A DNA stretch of 64,000 nucleotides from a virus. The notes under the pieces are model-generated. The model made no database searches. It was not told where the DNA came from and saw only the letters and a list, made by a program, of their open reading frames with translations. The number at the start of each line of letters is the position of its first letter. The first letter of the stretch is position 1. The stretch is from positions 1 to 64,000 of IMG/VR virus record IMGVR_UViG_3300031746_000002. The stretch is one strand, 5' to 3'. Below are positions 36,962 to 62,900 of this stretch, piece by piece. Both the position numbers and the translations under genes were made by a program.

Positions 36962-37966
36962 ATGGAAAACCCCAAAGTGGTGAAACTCCTAACATCAGAT
37001 GAAGTTAGGAGCAGGTTAGTAAGTGATACAAAAGGAGAAGCAGTAGAAACAATTACAATGAAAGAGTTTGAATTTGTTGATGAAGCAAAGGATGACATAA
37101 CAATTCTTTCATTAAGGAAAAAAAGATTTGAAGTTGAACCAGATGCACTCGAATCAATCTTCAGGCATGTTGGAGTACCTACCAATTTCTTTTTACGCTG
37201 CAGTAAATCAACGAAGCAGAGTATCTCAAAACAATTCCTTGAAACAAATCCAAAAGAAGTACAGGTGCTTTATGGAGAAAATAGGATTAAAAATATTTTC
37301 TCAACAAAAACACCTTATGTTCCTACACTTGAAGTATTTGATGCAGCCCAAAAATCTGTAGGGAAATCGATGATTGAAACTTACACGCAGAGTAAAGGTA
37401 AGTTCATAATCAACTGGATAACTGAATATGCATCACATCCAGTGAAAGCAGTAAATGACATTTCAAAAGCTGGCATTACAATTGAAATAGGAAAACCAAA
37501 CGTACATTTCGATTTCGGGATTTGTGTAGGTGGTTTCATTTTCCGGCTGATATGTACTAATGGAATGATAACATCAAGGAACGAAATCACACAGGTCAAA
37601 GGTAGTTCAAAGGAAGAAATACTTACTAATATTAAAGGATTAGTAAGTGAGTCCTATGAAGCAGTTACAAAAAAAGAATTGCCAAGATTTGTTCATATGG
37701 CAACTGTACCAATCGACGATCCCGCTAATGCAGTTCACCAGCTGGCAAGGCAGAACCATATTCCAAGAGGTCATATAAAAACATTGCTTGACAGAGTACC
37801 ATCACTCGGGCAGAAGCCCACAATGTATGGAGTTATAAATCTGATAACTTCATATGCAAAAGAAATTCCGGATTATTACCAGAGAAGGAAAGTTCAATCA
37901 TTGGGCGGCGAAGTATTAAGAACTCAGCACAAATGCCCGACATGTCTCCATACTCTGGCATCATAA
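36962..37966 (+). CDS. DUF932-type phage/plasmid protein
   Basis: The 334-residue protein resembles the DUF932 family found in phages and plasmids: an N-terminal alpha/beta part (ESIFRHVGVPTNFFLRC) and a central beta region with GICVGGFIFRLICTNGMITSRNE, the family's most typical block. A helical C-terminus ends in CPTCLH, a possible half zinc site. Its job is unknown, though members are often expressed early. It sits alone behind P2, has an AAAGGAGG site, and uses noticeably more G/C-ending codons than its neighbours, suggesting high expression. Confidence 0.7.
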   Translation: MENPKVVKLLTSDEVRSRLVSDTKGEAVETITMKEFEFVDEAKDDITILSLRKKRFEVEPDALESIFRHVGVPTNFFLRCSKSTKQSISKQFLETNPKEVQVLYGENRIKNIFSTKTPYVPTLEVFDAAQKSVGKSMIETYTQSKGKFIINWITEYASHPVKAVNDISKAGITIEIGKPNVHFDFGICVGGFIFRLICTNGMITSRNEITQVKGSSKEEILTNIKGLVSESYEAVTKKELPRFVHMATVPIDDPANAVHQLARQNHIPRGHIKTLLDRVPSLGQKPTMYGVINLITSYAKEIPDYYQRRKVQSLGGEVLRTQHKCPTCLHTLAS

Positions 37967-37972
37967 TCCGAA

Positions 37973-38018
37973 ACAGGGAGTTAATCACTCCCTGTCTACT
38001 GGGGATAATCTCCCAGTA
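37973..38018 (+). terminator. Twin hairpins after the DUF932 gene
   Basis: ACAGGGAGT (37973-37981) pairs with ACTCCCTGT (37987-37995), and TACTGGG (37997-38003) pairs with CCCAGTA (38012-38018). The two stems stand side by side seven nt after the stop codon. Neither has a T-tail, so termination may be partial. They would separate the P2 unit from the genes behind it. Confidence 0.6.
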
Positions 38019-38035
38019 CTGATGAGGAAGATAAA

Positions 38036-38272
38036 ATGAAAATAGATTACATCAAAAAAGAAAATAAAATTATAACTCAGATAGACATACTTCATAAAGG
38101 TATATTATACAGCTTTATGAATAATGAAGGCAGAGCTATTGAAATTAGTAGACGAACTAAAGGTAAATGTAAATCACCGAATTATGAACCTGGAATTGCT
38201 AAAGGATATTATGTTGATATAATAGAACTTGCTAATAAAGCTATTATGAAAAGTTTAAAGAAAAAGGCTTAA
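38036..38272 (+). CDS. Unknown 78-residue protein
   Basis: A basic small protein with an N-terminal beta hairpin (KIITQIDILHKGILYSFMNNEGRAIEI) and a short C-terminal helix ending KKKA. It starts after GAGGAAGATAAA, directly past the twin hairpins. It loosely recalls the protein at 35897 in layout. No family is recognised. Confidence 0.5.
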   Translation: MKIDYIKKENKIITQIDILHKGILYSFMNNEGRAIEISRRTKGKCKSPNYEPGIAKGYYVDIIELANKAIMKSLKKKA

Positions 38273-54859: not shown

Positions 54860-55351
54860 ATGAAAGATAACAGACAAAACGTTCACGAATTCTATATTGG
54901 TTTAGCAAAACAAATAGCTTCAAGGGGAACATGCTTACGCAGGCAGATAGGAGCTGTTTTAATTAAAGATGGTATTATATTAGCAACAGGATATAATGGA
55001 CCGCCATCAGGGTTAGCACACTGCGATAAATGTTTTCGCATAACTAATAATATCCAAAGCTCAACACGTTTAGAATTTTGTAGAGCAGTACATGCTGAAG
55101 AAAATGTATTAATTCAATGTGCTATAAAGCAGACAAATCCCACTGGTGGAATTTTATATTGCACACATTCTCCTTGTGTTACTTGTGCAAAAAGTATTAT
55201 TCAAGCTAAAATCAGTGCTATTATATATGATGAAATTTATCCAGATGAATTGACTCAGCAAATGATAGGAGAGTCTTCTGTATTATTTTATCAAGTTAAA
55301 ACTCCTAACTTAGATACTTTATTAAAACTTAAAGGACAAACATTAATATGA
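54860..55351 (+). CDS. dCMP deaminase
   Basis: The 163-residue protein has the zinc-deaminase signature: AVHAEENV (His and catalytic Glu) and SPCVTCAKS. An extra HCDKC lies near residue 55, as in T4-type dCMP deaminases with a second zinc. It would convert dCMP to dUMP for thymidylate synthesis. It is first in the unit after the terminator, with an AAAGGAAAAC site, and overlaps the kinase gene by 4 nt. Confidence 0.85.
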   Translation: MKDNRQNVHEFYIGLAKQIASRGTCLRRQIGAVLIKDGIILATGYNGPPSGLAHCDKCFRITNNIQSSTRLEFCRAVHAEENVLIQCAIKQTNPTGGILYCTHSPCVTCAKSIIQAKISAIIYDEIYPDELTQQMIGESSVLFYQVKTPNLDTLLKLKGQTLI

Positions 55352-55884
55352 TAATCATTGTTGAAGGAATAGATGGTACTGGCAAAACTTATTTTTGTAA
55401 ATATATAGCAAAAAAATATGGCTTTAAATATATTCATGCACCAAAACCAAAGAAACCTTTCGATGAATTTGCTAAAACAGTTACTGCTAAGTACAAAAAA
55501 TTAATCAAAGATAATTTAAAAAAATATGTTATTTTTGATAGATCATTTTATAGTGAATATGCTTATAATTATAATAGGACACATAAATACATAGAGCAAT
55601 TTGAAAAATTATTAAATGTTAATTACACTGTTATATTATTTACTCTATCTCATTTAGGTATCAGGCGAACATTTAATAAATATATTGCTAATCATCAAGC
55701 TTTTGATAATCAAAATAAGTTTGCAAGAAAAGTAGCAGTACAACAGCGATATATTTATATTTTGGGAAAATCAAGACTTGCAAGTAAATACATAATAAAT
55801 ATTCCAGACACGCTTGATAAACTTGGTACAGGATATAAAAAAGCACAGAATACAGCTTTAAGAATTATTGAGCATATAATATGA
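55348..55884 (+). CDS. Thymidylate-kinase-like dNMP kinase
   Basis: The 178-residue protein starts MIIIVEGIDGTGKTYF, the P-loop of thymidylate kinases, followed by VIFDRSFYSEYAYN (the DR-Y motif) and a LID-like region with RRTFNKYIANH. It would phosphorylate dTMP or another dNMP. The short length is common for phage deoxynucleotide kinases. Overlaps of 4 nt on both sides couple it to the deaminase and the radical-SAM gene. Confidence 0.8.
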   Translation: MIIIVEGIDGTGKTYFCKYIAKKYGFKYIHAPKPKKPFDEFAKTVTAKYKKLIKDNLKKYVIFDRSFYSEYAYNYNRTHKYIEQFEKLLNVNYTVILFTLSHLGIRRTFNKYIANHQAFDNQNKFARKVAVQQRYIYILGKSRLASKYIINIPDTLDKLGTGYKKAQNTALRIIEHII

Positions 55885-56891
55885 AATTAGATAATTACTA
55901 CAGTGAAATAACCAGAGTACGAGAAAAGATGTCACCTATCTCTATTTGCATTTATCCTACAAACCGATGTTCATGTAAATGTATAATGTGCGATGTACAT
56001 AAAATACAAGACAAAGCAGACTTACCTTTTGATAAATTATTAGATGTAATTATTATGGCGCATCTAATGAAAGTAGAAAGCATCGTTTTCATTGGTGGTG
56101 GCGAACCAACACTTTACGATCATCTTCCACATATAATAGAACATATAAATGAATTTACACAGATGTCAATGGGAATTCTTACAAATGGTAATACAAATTT
56201 TAATTTTGGTTGTGCTGCAAAAAACTATCGTATGAAATTTATAAGATTTTCAATAGATGCAGTTAGTAAAGAACTTTATAAAAAAATACGAGGAGCAGTA
56301 CTTGATAAGGTACTTAATAATTTCAGTACTGTTTTAAATGTTGCTCCAGAAAAAACTAGAATAAATGCTTTGATTATGGATGAGAATATATTTGATGTAA
56401 AGAACTTAATTGATTTTGCAGCAGATAATCATACAACTATTAATTTTACATTAGCAGTGAATTGTAATAGTTTTAAGAATAAAATAAAAATCAATGAACT
56501 TACAAGGTTACAATATTATAAAAGTTCTTGCCATAATTTAAACATACTATTTGAGAAGCATGAATTAATAAATAAACACGAATGTGTATTACCTTTAATA
56601 TACGCTGTAATTGATGCAAAGGGAGATGTGTTTCCTTGTACAATAGCAGCTCAAAGTTTGGGTATTAATATTGATAATAGAGATGTTATATTAGGTAATA
56701 TATGTCAAGATACATTTAGTAGTATCTGGCTTCGTTCTGGGACACGAAGACTGAACATGTCTAGTAATCCTGATAAATTCAATATTTGTCGCTGGTGTAA
56801 CAGGGGTGGTATATCTGCATGTAAACTAAATATGCAGTATAGAAATGAATATGAAACATTGAAAAGTCTTCACAAGGCAACATTCTTATGA
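55881..56891 (+). CDS. Radical SAM protein with SPASM-like C-terminus
   Basis: The 336-residue protein has the radical-SAM cluster motif CSCKCIMC (C-x3-C-x2-C from the second Cys) after IYPTNR. FIGGGEPTLYDHL and MSMGILTNGNTNF follow as the SAM-binding strands. A C-terminal cysteine set (ECVLPLIYAVIDAKGDVFPCT... and FNICRWCNRGGISAC) fits a SPASM-type auxiliary iron-sulphur domain. SPASM enzymes modify peptides or small molecules, so the target here is open. Its place beside nucleotide enzymes and a glycosyltransferase suggests DNA or RNA modification, by inference. Confidence 0.75.
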   Translation: MKLDNYYSEITRVREKMSPISICIYPTNRCSCKCIMCDVHKIQDKADLPFDKLLDVIIMAHLMKVESIVFIGGGEPTLYDHLPHIIEHINEFTQMSMGILTNGNTNFNFGCAAKNYRMKFIRFSIDAVSKELYKKIRGAVLDKVLNNFSTVLNVAPEKTRINALIMDENIFDVKNLIDFAADNHTTINFTLAVNCNSFKNKIKINELTRLQYYKSSCHNLNILFEKHELINKHECVLPLIYAVIDAKGDVFPCTIAAQSLGINIDNRDVILGNICQDTFSSIWLRSGTRRLNMSSNPDKFNICRWCNRGGISACKLNMQYRNEYETLKSLHKATFL

Positions 56892-57502
56892 AACAACAAA
56901 TGATAGAAAACGAAAGATTAAAAACAGTTAGAAATCAACTACAAAGTTGCAAGCAATGTGAACTTTCAAAGCTTGAAATAAATAAACAAGATGAGGATTA
57001 TCCAGACAGAGGTAAAGTCTTTTCAACGGGTTATTCTGATGCAAAAATAATGTTTATAGGAGAAAGTCCATTTTTTAAAAGAGTAGTGGGAAATGATGGA
57101 ATAATACGACCATTTAATTTTGGTAATGAATATGAAGATAATGTTGGGTCTGGTAAAATACTTTTTAATATTTTATGGAAACTCAATGTAAAACGAGAAG
57201 ACATTTACATTACAAATTTAATCAAGTGTTCTTACAATGAAAAGTTACGAAAAAATATTCAAAAATATTTTGCTGAATGTTTCTTCTTAACAAAGCTTGA
57301 AATAGCTTTAGTAAAACCAAAAATAATCTTTTTATTGGGAAATGAAGTACATCAATTTTTTGAAACACATAAGCTGATGTCAATCATTCCTGAACAAATA
57401 ATAGCAATATCACATCCTGCATTTATTTATAGAAGTCCCGGCTTTAAAACTAAATATGAAGGTATTATAAAGCATCATTTAACAGAGGCGGGTTTGATAT
57501 GA
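56888..57502 (+). CDS. Family-4-like uracil-DNA glycosylase
   Basis: The 204-residue protein has SCKQCELS (C21/C24), IMFIGESPFF, YITNLIKCSYNEK and AECFFL giving the four Cys of a 4Fe-4S cluster. The closing ISHPAFIYRSPGF provides the catalytic-loop histidine. These fit family 4 (UDGa-type) glycosylases. A phage that also codes a dCMP deaminase and a dUTPase would benefit from removing uracil, but phage UDG homologues can also act in base hypermodification. It overlaps both neighbours by 4 nt. Confidence 0.75.
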   Translation: MKQQMIENERLKTVRNQLQSCKQCELSKLEINKQDEDYPDRGKVFSTGYSDAKIMFIGESPFFKRVVGNDGIIRPFNFGNEYEDNVGSGKILFNILWKLNVKREDIYITNLIKCSYNEKLRKNIQKYFAECFFLTKLEIALVKPKIIFLLGNEVHQFFETHKLMSIIPEQIIAISHPAFIYRSPGFKTKYEGIIKHHLTEAGLI

Positions 57503-58671
57503 TTAAAGTATTATATGCACCATTTTATTCTATGAGAAGTTATAAAACAACTATGTGGTTACTTCAAAGAGATGGACATGCAACAAGATGCAGAAACATA
57601 GTTCATCTTTTATGTCAAAAATATAATGATGTAAATTTTGATATTATTATTCCGACTAATAATGATATTGATAATAGCTTCGAAAAATTCTTTGGGAAAT
57701 TTGATACTTCAGAATATGTTGATCGTGTTAGATTACTTGTAAATCCTTTTTATGCGCATAACACTGTAAGTGAACGAATGAATTTTCCATATAAATTTTT
57801 TAAAGAAGTATTAGCTAATAGCAATTATGATGTAGTAATTTATGAAAACATTGAAAATGCAAGATATATGAAAAATTTAATGTTACCTCATGCAAGACTA
57901 ATTTCTTCAATAACTCATTCACCAGCAACAGAAGACACAATTTTTTTAAAGCATAACAATTTTTTACTTCGGATCATTGATGGTCTATATGCATCTGATG
58001 CAGTGTTTTATAATACATCATATATTTTTAATAATATGGATTGTATACTATCAAAACATTTTCCTAATGATATTGCTATATTAATGGATAAATTAAAGGC
58101 ATCATATGCTTATACTAGTTCATATGAAATGGGATCAATTGATGATGTAGCAGCTGCAAAAGAAAAAGGTTCTGTTTTATTCATGAGTAGATTTTCAGAT
58201 GCAGACAGAACTAAAGTAAATGATTTTATAAATCTCGTTAAAGATTATAAATCTGATAAGTATCGTTTTTATATAACAAACCCTTCTGAAGCAATACTGA
58301 ATATGGATATGCAAAATTTATTAGACAGAGATAAATTAACTTTACTTCCACAACATAATAGAAGAGATTGGAAAGACATACTTCGACGAATGGAAATGGT
58401 AGTAATTTTATATGATGTTGAAAAATGTTATAGTACAGGATATTTTGAAGCAGCATTAAATAAATGCAAAATCATAACACAATCACATAAAAGTTGGATG
58501 TATAAATTAAATGAACATATTTATCCTTTATCTGATGACATAGAGCAAGCATTAGATAGTGCATCAACATGTCCACCAGGTAAAAACTATTTAGGATGTA
58601 AAGTAAGTTCTAATGATTTCACTGTAGAACATAGCTTAAATAAACTTGCATCAATAATTTTATGTAAATAA
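57499..58671 (+). CDS. GT-B-like glycosyltransferase
   Basis: The 390-residue protein reads like a two-domain GT-B enzyme. The N-terminal half opens MIKVLYAPFYSMRSYKTT and contains ENARYMKNLM. The C-terminal half holds VLFMSRFSDADRTKVNDFINLV, KLTLLPQHNRRDWKDILRRMEMVVILYD, and YFEAALNKCKIITQS where GT-B donors contact an E-A pair. The acceptor cannot be told: DNA bases, a wall sugar or a small metabolite are possible. It ends the nucleotide/modification unit, followed by the tRNA-like genes. Confidence 0.55.
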   Translation: MIKVLYAPFYSMRSYKTTMWLLQRDGHATRCRNIVHLLCQKYNDVNFDIIIPTNNDIDNSFEKFFGKFDTSEYVDRVRLLVNPFYAHNTVSERMNFPYKFFKEVLANSNYDVVIYENIENARYMKNLMLPHARLISSITHSPATEDTIFLKHNNFLLRIIDGLYASDAVFYNTSYIFNNMDCILSKHFPNDIAILMDKLKASYAYTSSYEMGSIDDVAAAKEKGSVLFMSRFSDADRTKVNDFINLVKDYKSDKYRFYITNPSEAILNMDMQNLLDRDKLTLLPQHNRRDWKDILRRMEMVVILYDVEKCYSTGYFEAALNKCKIITQSHKSWMYKLNEHIYPLSDDIEQALDSASTCPPGKNYLGCKVSSNDFTVEHSLNKLASIILCK

Positions 58672-58672
58672 G

Positions 58673-58685
58673 GCTTAATAATTAA
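58673..58685 (+). promoter_or_regulatory. GCTTAATAATTAA motif upstream of tRNA-like genes, copy 3
   Basis: The third exact copy of the 13-mer begins 2 nt after the glycosyltransferase stop and ends 8 nt before the first tRNA-like gene. Its closeness to the 5' end of the tRNA could mark a processing site rather than a promoter. Confidence 0.35.
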
Positions 58686-58692
58686 ACTACTC

Positions 58693-58768
58693 ATAGAGGT
58701 GGAGCAATTGGTTAGCTCAATTTATCCAGCGCAGGTAAATTATATAGGTTCGAGTCCTATCCTTTATG
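58693..58768 (+). tRNA. tRNA-like gene 1, anticodon arm abnormal
   Basis: The acceptor stem ATAGAGG pairs with CCTTTAT (58761-58767, one G-T pair) and G follows. A D-arm GAGC/GCTC with AATTGGTTA loop and a perfect T-arm ATAGG-TTCGAGT-CCTAT (58744-58760) are present. The anticodon arm folds as an 8-bp stem AATTTATC/GGTAAATT (58719-58741) with loop CAGCGCA, lacking the invariant U33. The isotype cannot be assigned safely. Length is 76 nt without CCA. It may be a degenerate, unusual or non-decoding tRNA. Confidence 0.7.
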
Positions 58769-58770
58769 GT

Positions 58771-58892
58771 GGGCAAATGGCGCAGTGGCTTTGTACGCAG
58801 AAGTTGAATCACTCAAATTAGAGTAACAGCTTCAGTATGAATTTATGCTAGTTCACTTTCATACTTCGGGGGTTCAAATCCCTCTTTGCCCA
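58771..58892 (+). tRNA. tRNA-like gene 2, 122 nt with oversized anticodon and variable arms
   Basis: A perfect acceptor stem GGGCAAA/TTTGCCC with A discriminator, a D-arm GCG/CGC, and a T-arm GGGGG-TTCAAAT-CCCTC are present. Between them, GAAGTTG (58800-58806) pairs with CAGCTTC (58827-58833) around a 20-nt loop that holds an inner ACTC/GAGT helix. AGTATGAA (58834-58841) pairs with TTCATACT (58858-58865) as a long variable arm. The D- and variable arms suggest a Leu/Ser-type (class II) tRNA. The big loop may contain an intron or make it non-decoding. Confidence 0.65.
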
Positions 58893-58921
58893 TTTTATAA
58901 AATTTAGTGGAGGAGAATACA

Positions 58922-59971
58922 ATGATAAAATTGATGGTAGGAAACAACTGGGATTTAAATTTGTTAGACAATCTTGCTGAGCTTAATGATAAATATCAAG
59001 CAGAAAATATTCAAATCGTTGAAGTGTATGGTTCAGTAATAGATAATCCAATAGGAACAGCTAGACCAACTTTTAGATTACAAGATAAATCACGTAAAGA
59101 AGTAGAAGAATTTACTAAAGTTGCTAATGCATGTTATATTGAATTGAATTATACTTTAAATATTCCATGCTTCGGAAATCTTGATGATTTATATATTAAG
59201 TACAATTCAATTTCTAGCTTTTTAAAATGGTTAGAAAACATTGGAATAAAAAGAGTAACAGTAACACATCCATTATTAATGGATATAATAACTAAAGAAA
59301 CAAAACTTGAAATTGAGCTATCAACAATTTTTCATATTACTTCAGTTCGGCAACTTGCTTTATTAATGAAACAATATCGTATTAGAAAAGTTTGTATGAA
59401 TTTAATGAAGAATAGGGATTTTGATTTCTTATCAGCATTCCAATTTAAAGATGTAGATATTGAATTAATGGTAAATGAAATGTGTAATTATGAATGTGTA
59501 TACCGTGCATCATGTTATAATTTACATGCTCATACAGTAAGAAGTAATAGAGATAGGTTCAGTGATTATCCAATGGGATATTGTACAGGTTTAAGAGATG
59601 GGGATTTAGTTGAATGGTTAAAGGCAAGATTTATACTACCACAATGGTTGGAATATTATTCTGCAAATTTTAATATTAACCATTTTAAAGTTACTGGCAG
59701 AACAGGTACAACAAAATATATTACATGGGTTGCAGAACAGTACATGAAAAAACAATACGATGATAATTTAATTGCTCTATGGTTTCAATTAGAAAACATA
59801 GGTCAAGCAGAGAATAAACATATTGTTGCAAAAAATCAAATCCCAGCAGGTGAAATTAAATTAGATTTCCTTGAACATTTCAAACATGCAAAATGTGATA
59901 TTGAATGCAACAATACATGTGCTTTCTGTAGTATATACTTGCAAAAGATACAGGAAAATAATGGCAAATAA
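58922..59971 (+). CDS. Peptidase U32-family protein (TrhP/UbiU-like)
   Basis: ATG 58922, behind GGAGGAGAATACA, gives 349 residues; the in-frame GTG 58907 overlaps the ribosome site. U32 features are VEVYGSVIDNPIGTARP, GIKRVTVTHPLLM, LSTIFHITS, and the conserved LMVNEMCNYECVYRASCYNLHAHT cysteine block. LPQWLEYYSANFNINHFKVTGR...YMKKQYDDNL and a last CDIECNNTCAFC follow. Known members are iron-sulphur proteins that hydroxylate tRNA, rRNA or quinone precursors. It follows two tRNA-like genes, so RNA modification is a reasonable guess. Confidence 0.65.
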   Translation: MIKLMVGNNWDLNLLDNLAELNDKYQAENIQIVEVYGSVIDNPIGTARPTFRLQDKSRKEVEEFTKVANACYIELNYTLNIPCFGNLDDLYIKYNSISSFLKWLENIGIKRVTVTHPLLMDIITKETKLEIELSTIFHITSVRQLALLMKQYRIRKVCMNLMKNRDFDFLSAFQFKDVDIELMVNEMCNYECVYRASCYNLHAHTVRSNRDRFSDYPMGYCTGLRDGDLVEWLKARFILPQWLEYYSANFNINHFKVTGRTGTTKYITWVAEQYMKKQYDDNLIALWFQLENIGQAENKHIVAKNQIPAGEIKLDFLEHFKHAKCDIECNNTCAFCSIYLQKIQENNGK

Positions 59972-62900
59972 ACAGCAACCGTTCGTTCATCTTCATACAC
60001 ATTCCACATATTCTACGCAGGACGCTATTGGGTATCCTTCTGAAATTTTAAAACATGCAGAAGATATAGGGTTTAGGTCTATAGCAATAACAGACCACGG
60101 TAATATGAATATGGTTGCTAATCTTTATTTGGCTTCTAAAGATTTAAAGATCAAACCAATTTATGGTTGTGAATTTTATATGGTACCAAACTTAGAAAAA
60201 TGGAAAGCTAGAAAACTAGAAATTGAAGAACAAGTAAAGTTAATGAAAAAAAATTCTGAGGAAAAAGTAACACGTAAAGATTTCAAAGAGCTTCAAAGCG
60301 AATTACGTAAACGATTTCATATTATACTACTTGCAAAAAATATGGAAGGAATTAAAAATTTATATGAATTATGTTATCAATCAAATTTTGGTGATAACTT
60401 TTATTATAGACCACGAATCGATGTAAACTTAATAGAAAAACATTATAAAGGATTAATATGTACATCAACATGTTTAGCAGGTTATCTTAACAACCGTTTA
60501 GAAAAAGTTAAAGTGCTTGAAAGATTTAAAGACATGTTTGGTGAAGATTTATATTTTGAAATAATGATGAATGAAATGCCAGAACAAAAAGTATTAGACA
60601 CTGAAATACTTGAAGCATCAGACAGCCATGAAATACCTATAATTTATACGGGTGATGTCCATTATATATTAAAGGAAGATGCGATAGCTAGAGACGCCTT
60701 GCGTATGTTAAGATTGAAACAAGTAGTGTCTTCTAAGCAGAAAGATGATAGTGTAAATTGTGAGCAGATGTATTTACGAACTTATGATGAAGTAATGGAA
60801 GCATACAGTGATTTTAAATATAATAAAATATTCAGCAAAGATATGCTTAAATTATTTATGAAGAACACATTAGAAATCGATGAAAAAATAGAACGACTAG
60901 ATTTTTCATATAAAACAGAACATACTATCAGATGGAAAAATGATTATGATAGATTAAAGGAATTATGTTATAATGCTTTAGACAAACGTATACCAAAAGA
61001 TAAACAGAAAGAATATGGAGCACAACTTAAAAAAGAGCTTGAAGTAATTCATGAAAAAAATATCAGCAGTTATTTTCTATTAATGAAAGTAATTGTTAAT
61101 TATGCCAAGGAAGAAATGATAGTTGGTTGTGGCAGAGGTTCAGCAGCAGGTTGTTTAGTAAGTTATCTTTTAAATATCACTGAGATTGACCCATTAAAAT
61201 TTGGATTATATTTTGAACGATTTATAAACATTGAAAGAAAAGAACTTCCAGATATCGATTTGGATTTTCAATATCCAGAAAAAGTAAAAAGTTATTTAAG
61301 CAACAGATTTGGTTATGACAATGTTGCAAGCATTGCTTCATATGGAACATTTCAAATTAAAGGATTATTAAAAGATCTCATAAGGGTTTATGAAGTACCA
61401 ATGGATATGATGCAGGTGAATAGACTCACAAAGGATATTGATAAAGAATTATCAGTACTGCTTCAAGACACAGAACAAAAAGGTATTGTAGTAACAACAT
61501 ATGATGTAGCTTATAAAACTTCTAAATCACTTAAAGAATTTTTAGATAAGCATGAGAAAATAGCAAAAGTGATGCAGATATTACATGGACAAATAAGACA
61601 TATCACAAGGCATGCTGCTGGTGTAATAGTTTGTAAGGGTTTAAAATCAAAACTTCCATTACAACGAATTAAAGATATTTTATGTACTTCATTTATGGAA
61701 GGCGGATCAAAGCACGAACTTTCTAAAATGGGATTTGTTAAACTAGATATTTTAGGATTGAATGCATTATCAATAGCAGACGACACATTAAAGTTAATAG
61801 GTAAAACATATGAATACGTACATCCTGATCATTTAAATATTGAAGATAAGAAAGTATATAATGATGTATACAACAAAAAAAATTATATAGGTATATTTCA
61901 GTTTGATGCAAAGAGCATGAGAGACGTTGCTAGCAGCGGTAAAATAACAACGTTTGAAGATTTAATAGCTCTGAATGCATTGGATAGACCTGGACCAATC
62001 AGAAGTGGAATGCATTTAGATTTCTTTAAAAATAAACAAGACTCTTCAAAGATAGAATATTTGCATGAAAGATTACGACCAATACTTGAAGGAACATACG
62101 GTATTTTATGTTACCAAGAACAAATGATGCAGATAGCACAACAATTAGCTGACTTTGATCTAGCTGAAACTAATGTACTACGAAAAGCAATTGTAAAAAC
62201 AAGTAAAGAAGATATAGACAAGAATGAAAAACTTAGAGCTGAACTTAAAATAAGATTTTTAAAAGGTTGTGCAGATAACAAAATCAATAAAGATATTGCA
62301 GAAAAGATATGGGAATTGATGGCTAAGTTTGCAGGTTATGCTTTTAATAAGGCTCACAGTGCGTCATATGCTATGGTAGGTTATCAATTAGCTTTTCTTA
62401 AAACATATCATCCAAAAGAATTTTATGCTGCTGTATTAAACAATGACCAGTTTGATAACTATAGTGCTATAATACAAGAGATAAAAAATAATGGTATAGA
62501 GATTGAGTCTGTAGATATAAGATACAGTGAAATTAATTTCTCTCTTAAGGATGGAAAAATATATTGGGCATTTTCAAAAATCAAAGGAGTGGGAGATAAA
62601 GCAGCTGAAGCCATTATAGATGTAAGAAAATCTTACGAATTTAAAGGTATTAAAACATTTTTGAAAAGTCCTATGAACTGGCGAATAGTTAATAAAAGAG
62701 TGGTAGAGTCTTTGATCAGTTGTGGTGCATTTGATTTTCAAACAAATTTTGGAGGTAATGTAAAACAACTATTAGAATTTTATAACATGTGGAACAAGGG
62801 ACAAAAAAATAAATTTAAGAAAAGTGAAAAGAATGATCCAGACTTAGTGAAAAGAAAAATGAATGAAACTATGCAAGAAGTTGAAGAGTTAAAAACTGAA

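Follow-up and report, generated by a model that had tools for sequence, protein, structure and literature searches.

Two tandem tRNA-type genes with enlarged anticodon arms in a tailed phage genome

We analysed a window of 64,000 bases (G+C 31%), the first part of the 138,900-base virus record IMGVR_UViG_3300031746_000002, in which two cloverleaves of the transfer RNA (tRNA) type, hereafter gene 1 and gene 2, lie head to tail on the + strand with 2 bases between them. The record comes from a tailed phage, in which we identified tail sheath and baseplate genes, a terminase and a DnaE-type polymerase. We consider it somewhat probable that the two are phage tRNA genes in which alterations limited to the anticodon arm have abolished decoding, and that they persist as relics between two co-directional genes.

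Cloverleaf structure and decoding capacity

A sequence-only reading of this DNA had credited both genes with good acceptor, D and T arms, and our stem listing agrees with it. Acceptor, D and T stems are completely paired, both genes have their T loop and the GG of the D loop, and each shows the 7-base-pair (bp) acceptor, the D stem, the 5-bp T stem and the TTCRA loop of a tRNA cloverleaf. Gene 1 is built of the acceptor ATAGAGG/CCTTTAT, a 4-bp D stem (GAGC/GCTC) and the T stem ATAGG/CCTAT with the loop TTCGAGT; its discriminator is G and CCA is not encoded. The corresponding parts of gene 2 are the acceptor GGGCAAA/TTTGCCC, the discriminator A (A73), the T stem GGGGG/CCCTC with the loop TTCAAAT, and a D stem of just 3 bp (GCG/CGC) that is missing from the minimum-energy fold.

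The whole record was searched with a cloverleaf finder script that takes no account of the anticodon arm and requires only the acceptor, D and T arms. It returned four cloverleaves, all on the + strand (gene 1, gene 2 and two others at 71727 and 91104), and none in 5.56 megabases of Markov sequence of equal dinucleotide make-up, both strands included. All four are also above the cut-off of the Rfam tRNA model (RF00005; cut-off 29), with 62.2, 58.8, 41.4 and 31.6 bits. The other two tRNAs of the record are ordinary, one for Gln (loop CTTTGAA) and one for Pro (loop TTTGGGG). The covariance-model check proposed earlier gave 41.4 bits for gene 1 and 31.6 bits for gene 2, and a window-wide cmscan at gathering level reported gene 2 and not gene 1. 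It is therefore scarcely credible that the pair is chance cloverleaf-like sequence or an assembly artefact. A search for a near relative that could confirm the sequence found none, which leaves some room for an artefact, but both Rfam scores exceed the cut-off, and we reject a chance origin on the zero finder matches in the Markov sequence. The fold of gene 2 is clearly stabler than that of its shuffles (z -3.33); that of gene 1 is no better than shuffles (z -0.95).

The peculiarity of both genes lies in the anticodon arm, and here folding bears out the architecture first read from the letters. In gene 1, an anticodon stem of 8 bp carries a loop of 7 nucleotides (nt), CAGCGCA (58727-58733), without U33. 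Gene 2, 122 nt long, has a 20-nt anticodon loop that contains a 4-bp helix, and an 8-bp variable arm with a 16-nt loop. In shape, gene 1 resembles a class I tRNA with about 2 bp added to the anticodon stem on the loop side, and gene 2 a class II tRNA carrying 17 additional nt in the anticodon arm. The combination of a 5-bp stem, a 7-nt loop and U33 was found in neither gene, supporting the earlier claim that neither would decode normally as written. In its default mode ARAGORN names gene 1 Leu(cag) and does not call gene 2. The 3' end of gene 2 (T arm and acceptor) is identical at 26 loci, which ARAGORN assigns to Met, Val or Leu with ordinary anticodons, and it is therefore uninformative on ancestral identity. 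Two leads were discarded: an ungapped match of gene 1 in Escherichia coli plasmids (E 0.6), in which the matched sequence is not a tRNA, and a mobile insert, since nothing else in the record matches the odd arms over more than 10-15 nt.

A missing decoding loop is rare but not unique among cloverleaves. In a survey of other sequences, mostly phage (three source loci are bacterial genome contigs and one, L106, is a plasmid), 168 of the 173 distinct cloverleaves have the 5-bp stem, the 7-nt loop and U33. The five without them are L017 (C33 loop), L161 and L163 (odd-size loops), L168 (16-nt loop) and L217 (A33 loop, Lactobacillus phage Bacchae). The survey skipped 71 duplicates and left out one of 61 tRNA matches (G010:17311-17360, 20.9 bits); its strict finder loses tRNAs with imperfect stems, recovering 53 of 71 tRNA matches and missing 18. 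For these 71 matches, ARAGORN reported a 3-nt anticodon with U33 in 59 and a different outcome in 3; it made no call for the other 9. The odd tRNAs as a group (L161, L163, L168, L017, L172 and L217) have 6-, 8- or 16-nt loops and C33 or A33, L172 being a 103-nt match with extra hairpins.

Table 1 Positions in the window of the tRNA-type genes, their unusual arms and the flanking coding sequences.
Feature	Position	Strand	Description	Basis
Upstream coding sequence, 390 amino acids, no assigned function	57499..58671	+	stops 21 nt 5' of gene 1	
tRNA-like gene 1	58693..58768	+	76 nt	Rfam tRNA match, fold, stem listing
Gene 1 anticodon arm	58719..58741	+	8-bp stem AATTTATC/GGTAAATT	fold
tRNA-like gene 2	58771..58892	+	122 nt	Rfam tRNA match, fold, stem listing
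Gene 2 anticodon arm	58800..58833	+	34 nt; 7-bp stem, 20-nt loop, inner 4-bp helix ACTC/GAGT	fold
Gene 2 long variable arm, class II-like	58834..58865	+	8 bp, 16-nt loop	fold
Downstream U32-peptidase-like coding sequence	58922..59971	+	begins 29 nt 3' of gene 2, GGAGG ahead	

Lost decoding and the competing explanations

Both genes combine homology to tRNAs with a lesion that destroys decoding, as inactivated tRNA genes do. The ordinary Gln and Pro tRNAs support this reading, as they are evidence of decoding tRNAs in this phage. Further support comes from the similar defects in 5 of the 173 surveyed cloverleaves, from the short same-strand gaps in which all four tRNA-like genes lie, and from the lack of terminator-like sites around the pair. 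According to it, the pair would be transcribed together with the neighbouring genes, and RNase P and RNase Z, which recognise the acceptor and T arms, would still cut the ends of both tRNA-like RNAs; the product would probably not be used for codon reading and would have no job. Pseudo-tRNAs called by tRNAscan-SE are tabulated for T4-like phages in the accessible part of one report (PMC1524935), and these 'Pseudo' entries are likewise tRNA-type genes of tailed phages without a usable anticodon arm. In our pair, by comparison, enlargement affects the anticodon arm alone, in gene 2 also the variable arm, and the three other arms (acceptor, D and T) are intact. Among the three readings originally offered (tiny introns, degenerate genes, decoys), degeneration, taken as the loss of decoding, fits best, even though the remaining arms are intact.

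Several observations weigh against relics. The perfect retention of the other arms in both genes is unexpected for a long-decaying pseudogene, and the alteration of two adjacent genes in the same arm looks beyond random. Moreover, the defect affects two of four cloverleaves in this record and 5 of 173 elsewhere (Fisher p 0.008), a value to which we give little weight because the comparison was chosen post hoc and the two genes are adjacent and thus not independent. If the genes are relics, they exemplify phage tRNA genes that lose decoding with the tRNA body retained, and tRNA counts made with a single program may miss or misname such genes, as ARAGORN does here in calling one of them Leu and missing the other.

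We hold a functional, non-decoding role as tRNA mimics to be unlikely. The elbow and acceptor end would suffice for marks processed by RNase P and RNase Z, for decoys against tRNA-cutting defence, or for amino-acid donation outside translation. Perfect acceptor, D and T stems beside anticodon arms remade as longer paired hairpins, the tandem arrangement and the tight placement between coding genes all point in this direction. A processing-mark role would account for intact acceptor and T arms together with a freely changing anticodon arm, and charging of gene 2, given its A73 and long variable arm, is conceivable because leucyl-tRNA synthetase does not require the anticodon. On the other hand, relatives with a conserved shape were looked for and none was found. 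The placement is also not special, because gaps just as tight hold the ordinary tRNAs for Gln and Pro; all four tRNA-like genes of the record occupy short gaps between same-strand coding genes. A specific version, in which the pair is maintained as non-decoding mimics gripped by RNase P, RNase Z, the CCA-adding enzyme or a tRNA-binding defence protein, and serves as operon processing marks or immunity baits beside an archease that speeds the resealing of cut tRNAs by host RtcB, is in our view decidedly doubtful; if it is true, phages would be using tRNA bodies in a novel way.

Published phage tRNAs that counter host defences resemble the pair in part. In the available sections of one study (PMC11555353), phage-borne tRNA-Tyr and tRNA-Lys genes rescue from retron-Eco7 and PrrC170, and mutated stem-loops or a changed anticodon abolished rescue by the tRNA-Tyr. 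As those sections present them, the rescuing tRNAs need intact stem-loops and an anticodon, whereas gene 1 and gene 2 have neither; because rescue there required an intact anticodon, a decoy role is disfavoured (PMC11555353). The portion of a second report that was accessible (PMC10264068) proposes that loop mutations in phage tRNAs confer insensitivity to anticodon nucleases. Such tRNAs are likewise phage-borne with an altered anticodon arm, and in that portion they are meant as replacements for the cleaved ones; unlike the tRNAs described there, gene 1 and gene 2 have lost U33 and the standard loop. The literature searched on phage tRNA pseudogenes and odd anticodon arms, mostly non-subscription articles, yielded nothing describing the pair.

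That the genes still decode in an unusual manner, with the 8-bp stem of gene 1 or the large loop of gene 2 tolerated by the ribosome of the infected cell, perhaps in frameshift fashion, is improbable. ARAGORN does label gene 1 tRNA-Leu(cag), and odd loops lacking U33 also occur in the few phage tRNAs listed above (L017, L161, L163, L168 and L217). However, U33 is missing in all canonical registers tested, gene 1 has a class I shape whereas a tRNA-Leu should be class II, and a stem longer by two pairs would be expected to move the anticodon off the decoding site.

Introns that restore a normal anticodon loop, removed by archaeal-type bulge-helix-bulge cutting and followed by RtcB joining with the help of the phage archease, are very improbable. 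The phage does encode an archease, a protein that in other organisms acts together with the tRNA ligase RtcB. In addition, ARAGORN in intron mode also recognises gene 2, as Thr(agt) interrupted by a 43-nt intron, and a relaxed form of the motif, with a 3-bp centre and bulges of 2 and 3, matches the gene 2 arm exactly at positions 30-63. The strict bulge-helix-bulge motif (3-nt bulge, 4-bp helix, 3-nt bulge), however, occurs in neither gene; with one mismatch allowed, it can be placed 4 times in gene 1 and 13 times in gene 2. A search of the phage record, as distinct from host enzymes, returned no match to the tRNA_int_endo family of tRNA-splicing endonucleases or to the RtcB family. When the middle region was scanned whole, no single excision in gene 1 or gene 2 produced 5 pairs along with U33 and purine 37. 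Dropping the purine 37 requirement leaves gene 2 with two excision solutions (Thr AGU, 43 nt removed), but at least one such solution appears in 13% of 2000 shuffles. A narrower search that allowed 4 pairs gave five solutions for gene 2 (Y32, U33, R37), whose anticodons AAC, GAA and GAC are those of class I tRNAs. Self-splicing introns are much larger than any insert here. Gene 1 and gene 2 do share additional nucleotides in the anticodon arm with archaeal intron-bearing tRNAs, and the phage has its archease, but the record differs from those systems in lacking the strict motif, the endonuclease and RtcB. The tiny introns suggested earlier are thus poorly supported, one weaker 43-nt solution in gene 2 being what is left of them.

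The archease and other RNA-related genes of the phage

The archease gene lies at G000 110779-111222 (L007:6779-7222); its product matches the Pfam family with 66.8 bits and solved archeases weakly. RtcB has no match in the record that carries it, and the predicted archease may enhance the resealing of cut tRNAs by host RtcB. A tblastn search against 50,697 phage records returned no match to the archease, and literature searches, judged by titles and the beginnings of abstracts, turned up no description of a phage archease. The archease gene may be a more interesting lead than the tRNA-like pair, and its presence in this genome would make RtcB-based RNA repair by phages directly testable.

Beside the archease, a 438-amino-acid protein with a LigD 3'-phosphoesterase domain (59.5 bits; L008:11710-13026) is a possible nucleic-acid end-healing enzyme. 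Among 20 further open reading frames (ORFs) searched with Pfam, none was an RNA-repair gene; a match to RNA_ligase of 17.7 bits, under the cut-off, was dismissed, as it falls inside the ORF of an NAD-dependent DNA ligase. At L006:7104-7839 the tRNA-Pro is followed after 16 nt by an ORF that encodes a TnsA-like nuclease domain together with a weak NUMOD3 motif, perhaps a homing-type endonuclease; a similar ORF is present at L005:11088-11939.

Relatives and gene neighbourhood

No close relatives were found through the U32 protein, the terminase, DnaE, the gene 1 loop pattern or the gene 1 3' end pattern, in searches from which the records nearest to the window's own were possibly excluded. The best identity among DnaE relatives is about 40%. 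The U32-peptidase-like protein shares about 40% identity with T4-like phage proteins, and its alignment contains relatives at 36-39% identity only, all from T4-like phages; no tRNAs stand beside the U32 gene in 10 T4-like loci. For the 390-amino-acid upstream protein, Pfam and NCBIfam gave no match and PHROG only a weak one. A scan of 57300-60000 found no terminator-like site, and promoter-like sites there were no more frequent than in shuffles.

The pair is embedded in a gene run (54860-59971) that comprises a dCMP deaminase, thymidylate-kinase-like, radical SAM/SPASM and family-4 uracil-DNA-glycosylase-like genes, the gene without assigned function and the U32-peptidase-like gene. The neighbours of the U32 relatives in T4-like phages include thymidylate synthase or dCMP hydroxymethylase, and the run is possibly a DNA-base modification module.

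Elsewhere in the window, a type II hammerhead ribozyme (37966-38036, + strand; 52.4 bits, E 6e-8) is located at the end of the gene at 36962-37966. Hammerheads are known, from the accessible part of one report, in intergenic regions of phages and, in a halovirus, upstream of a helicase gene (PMC3088659).
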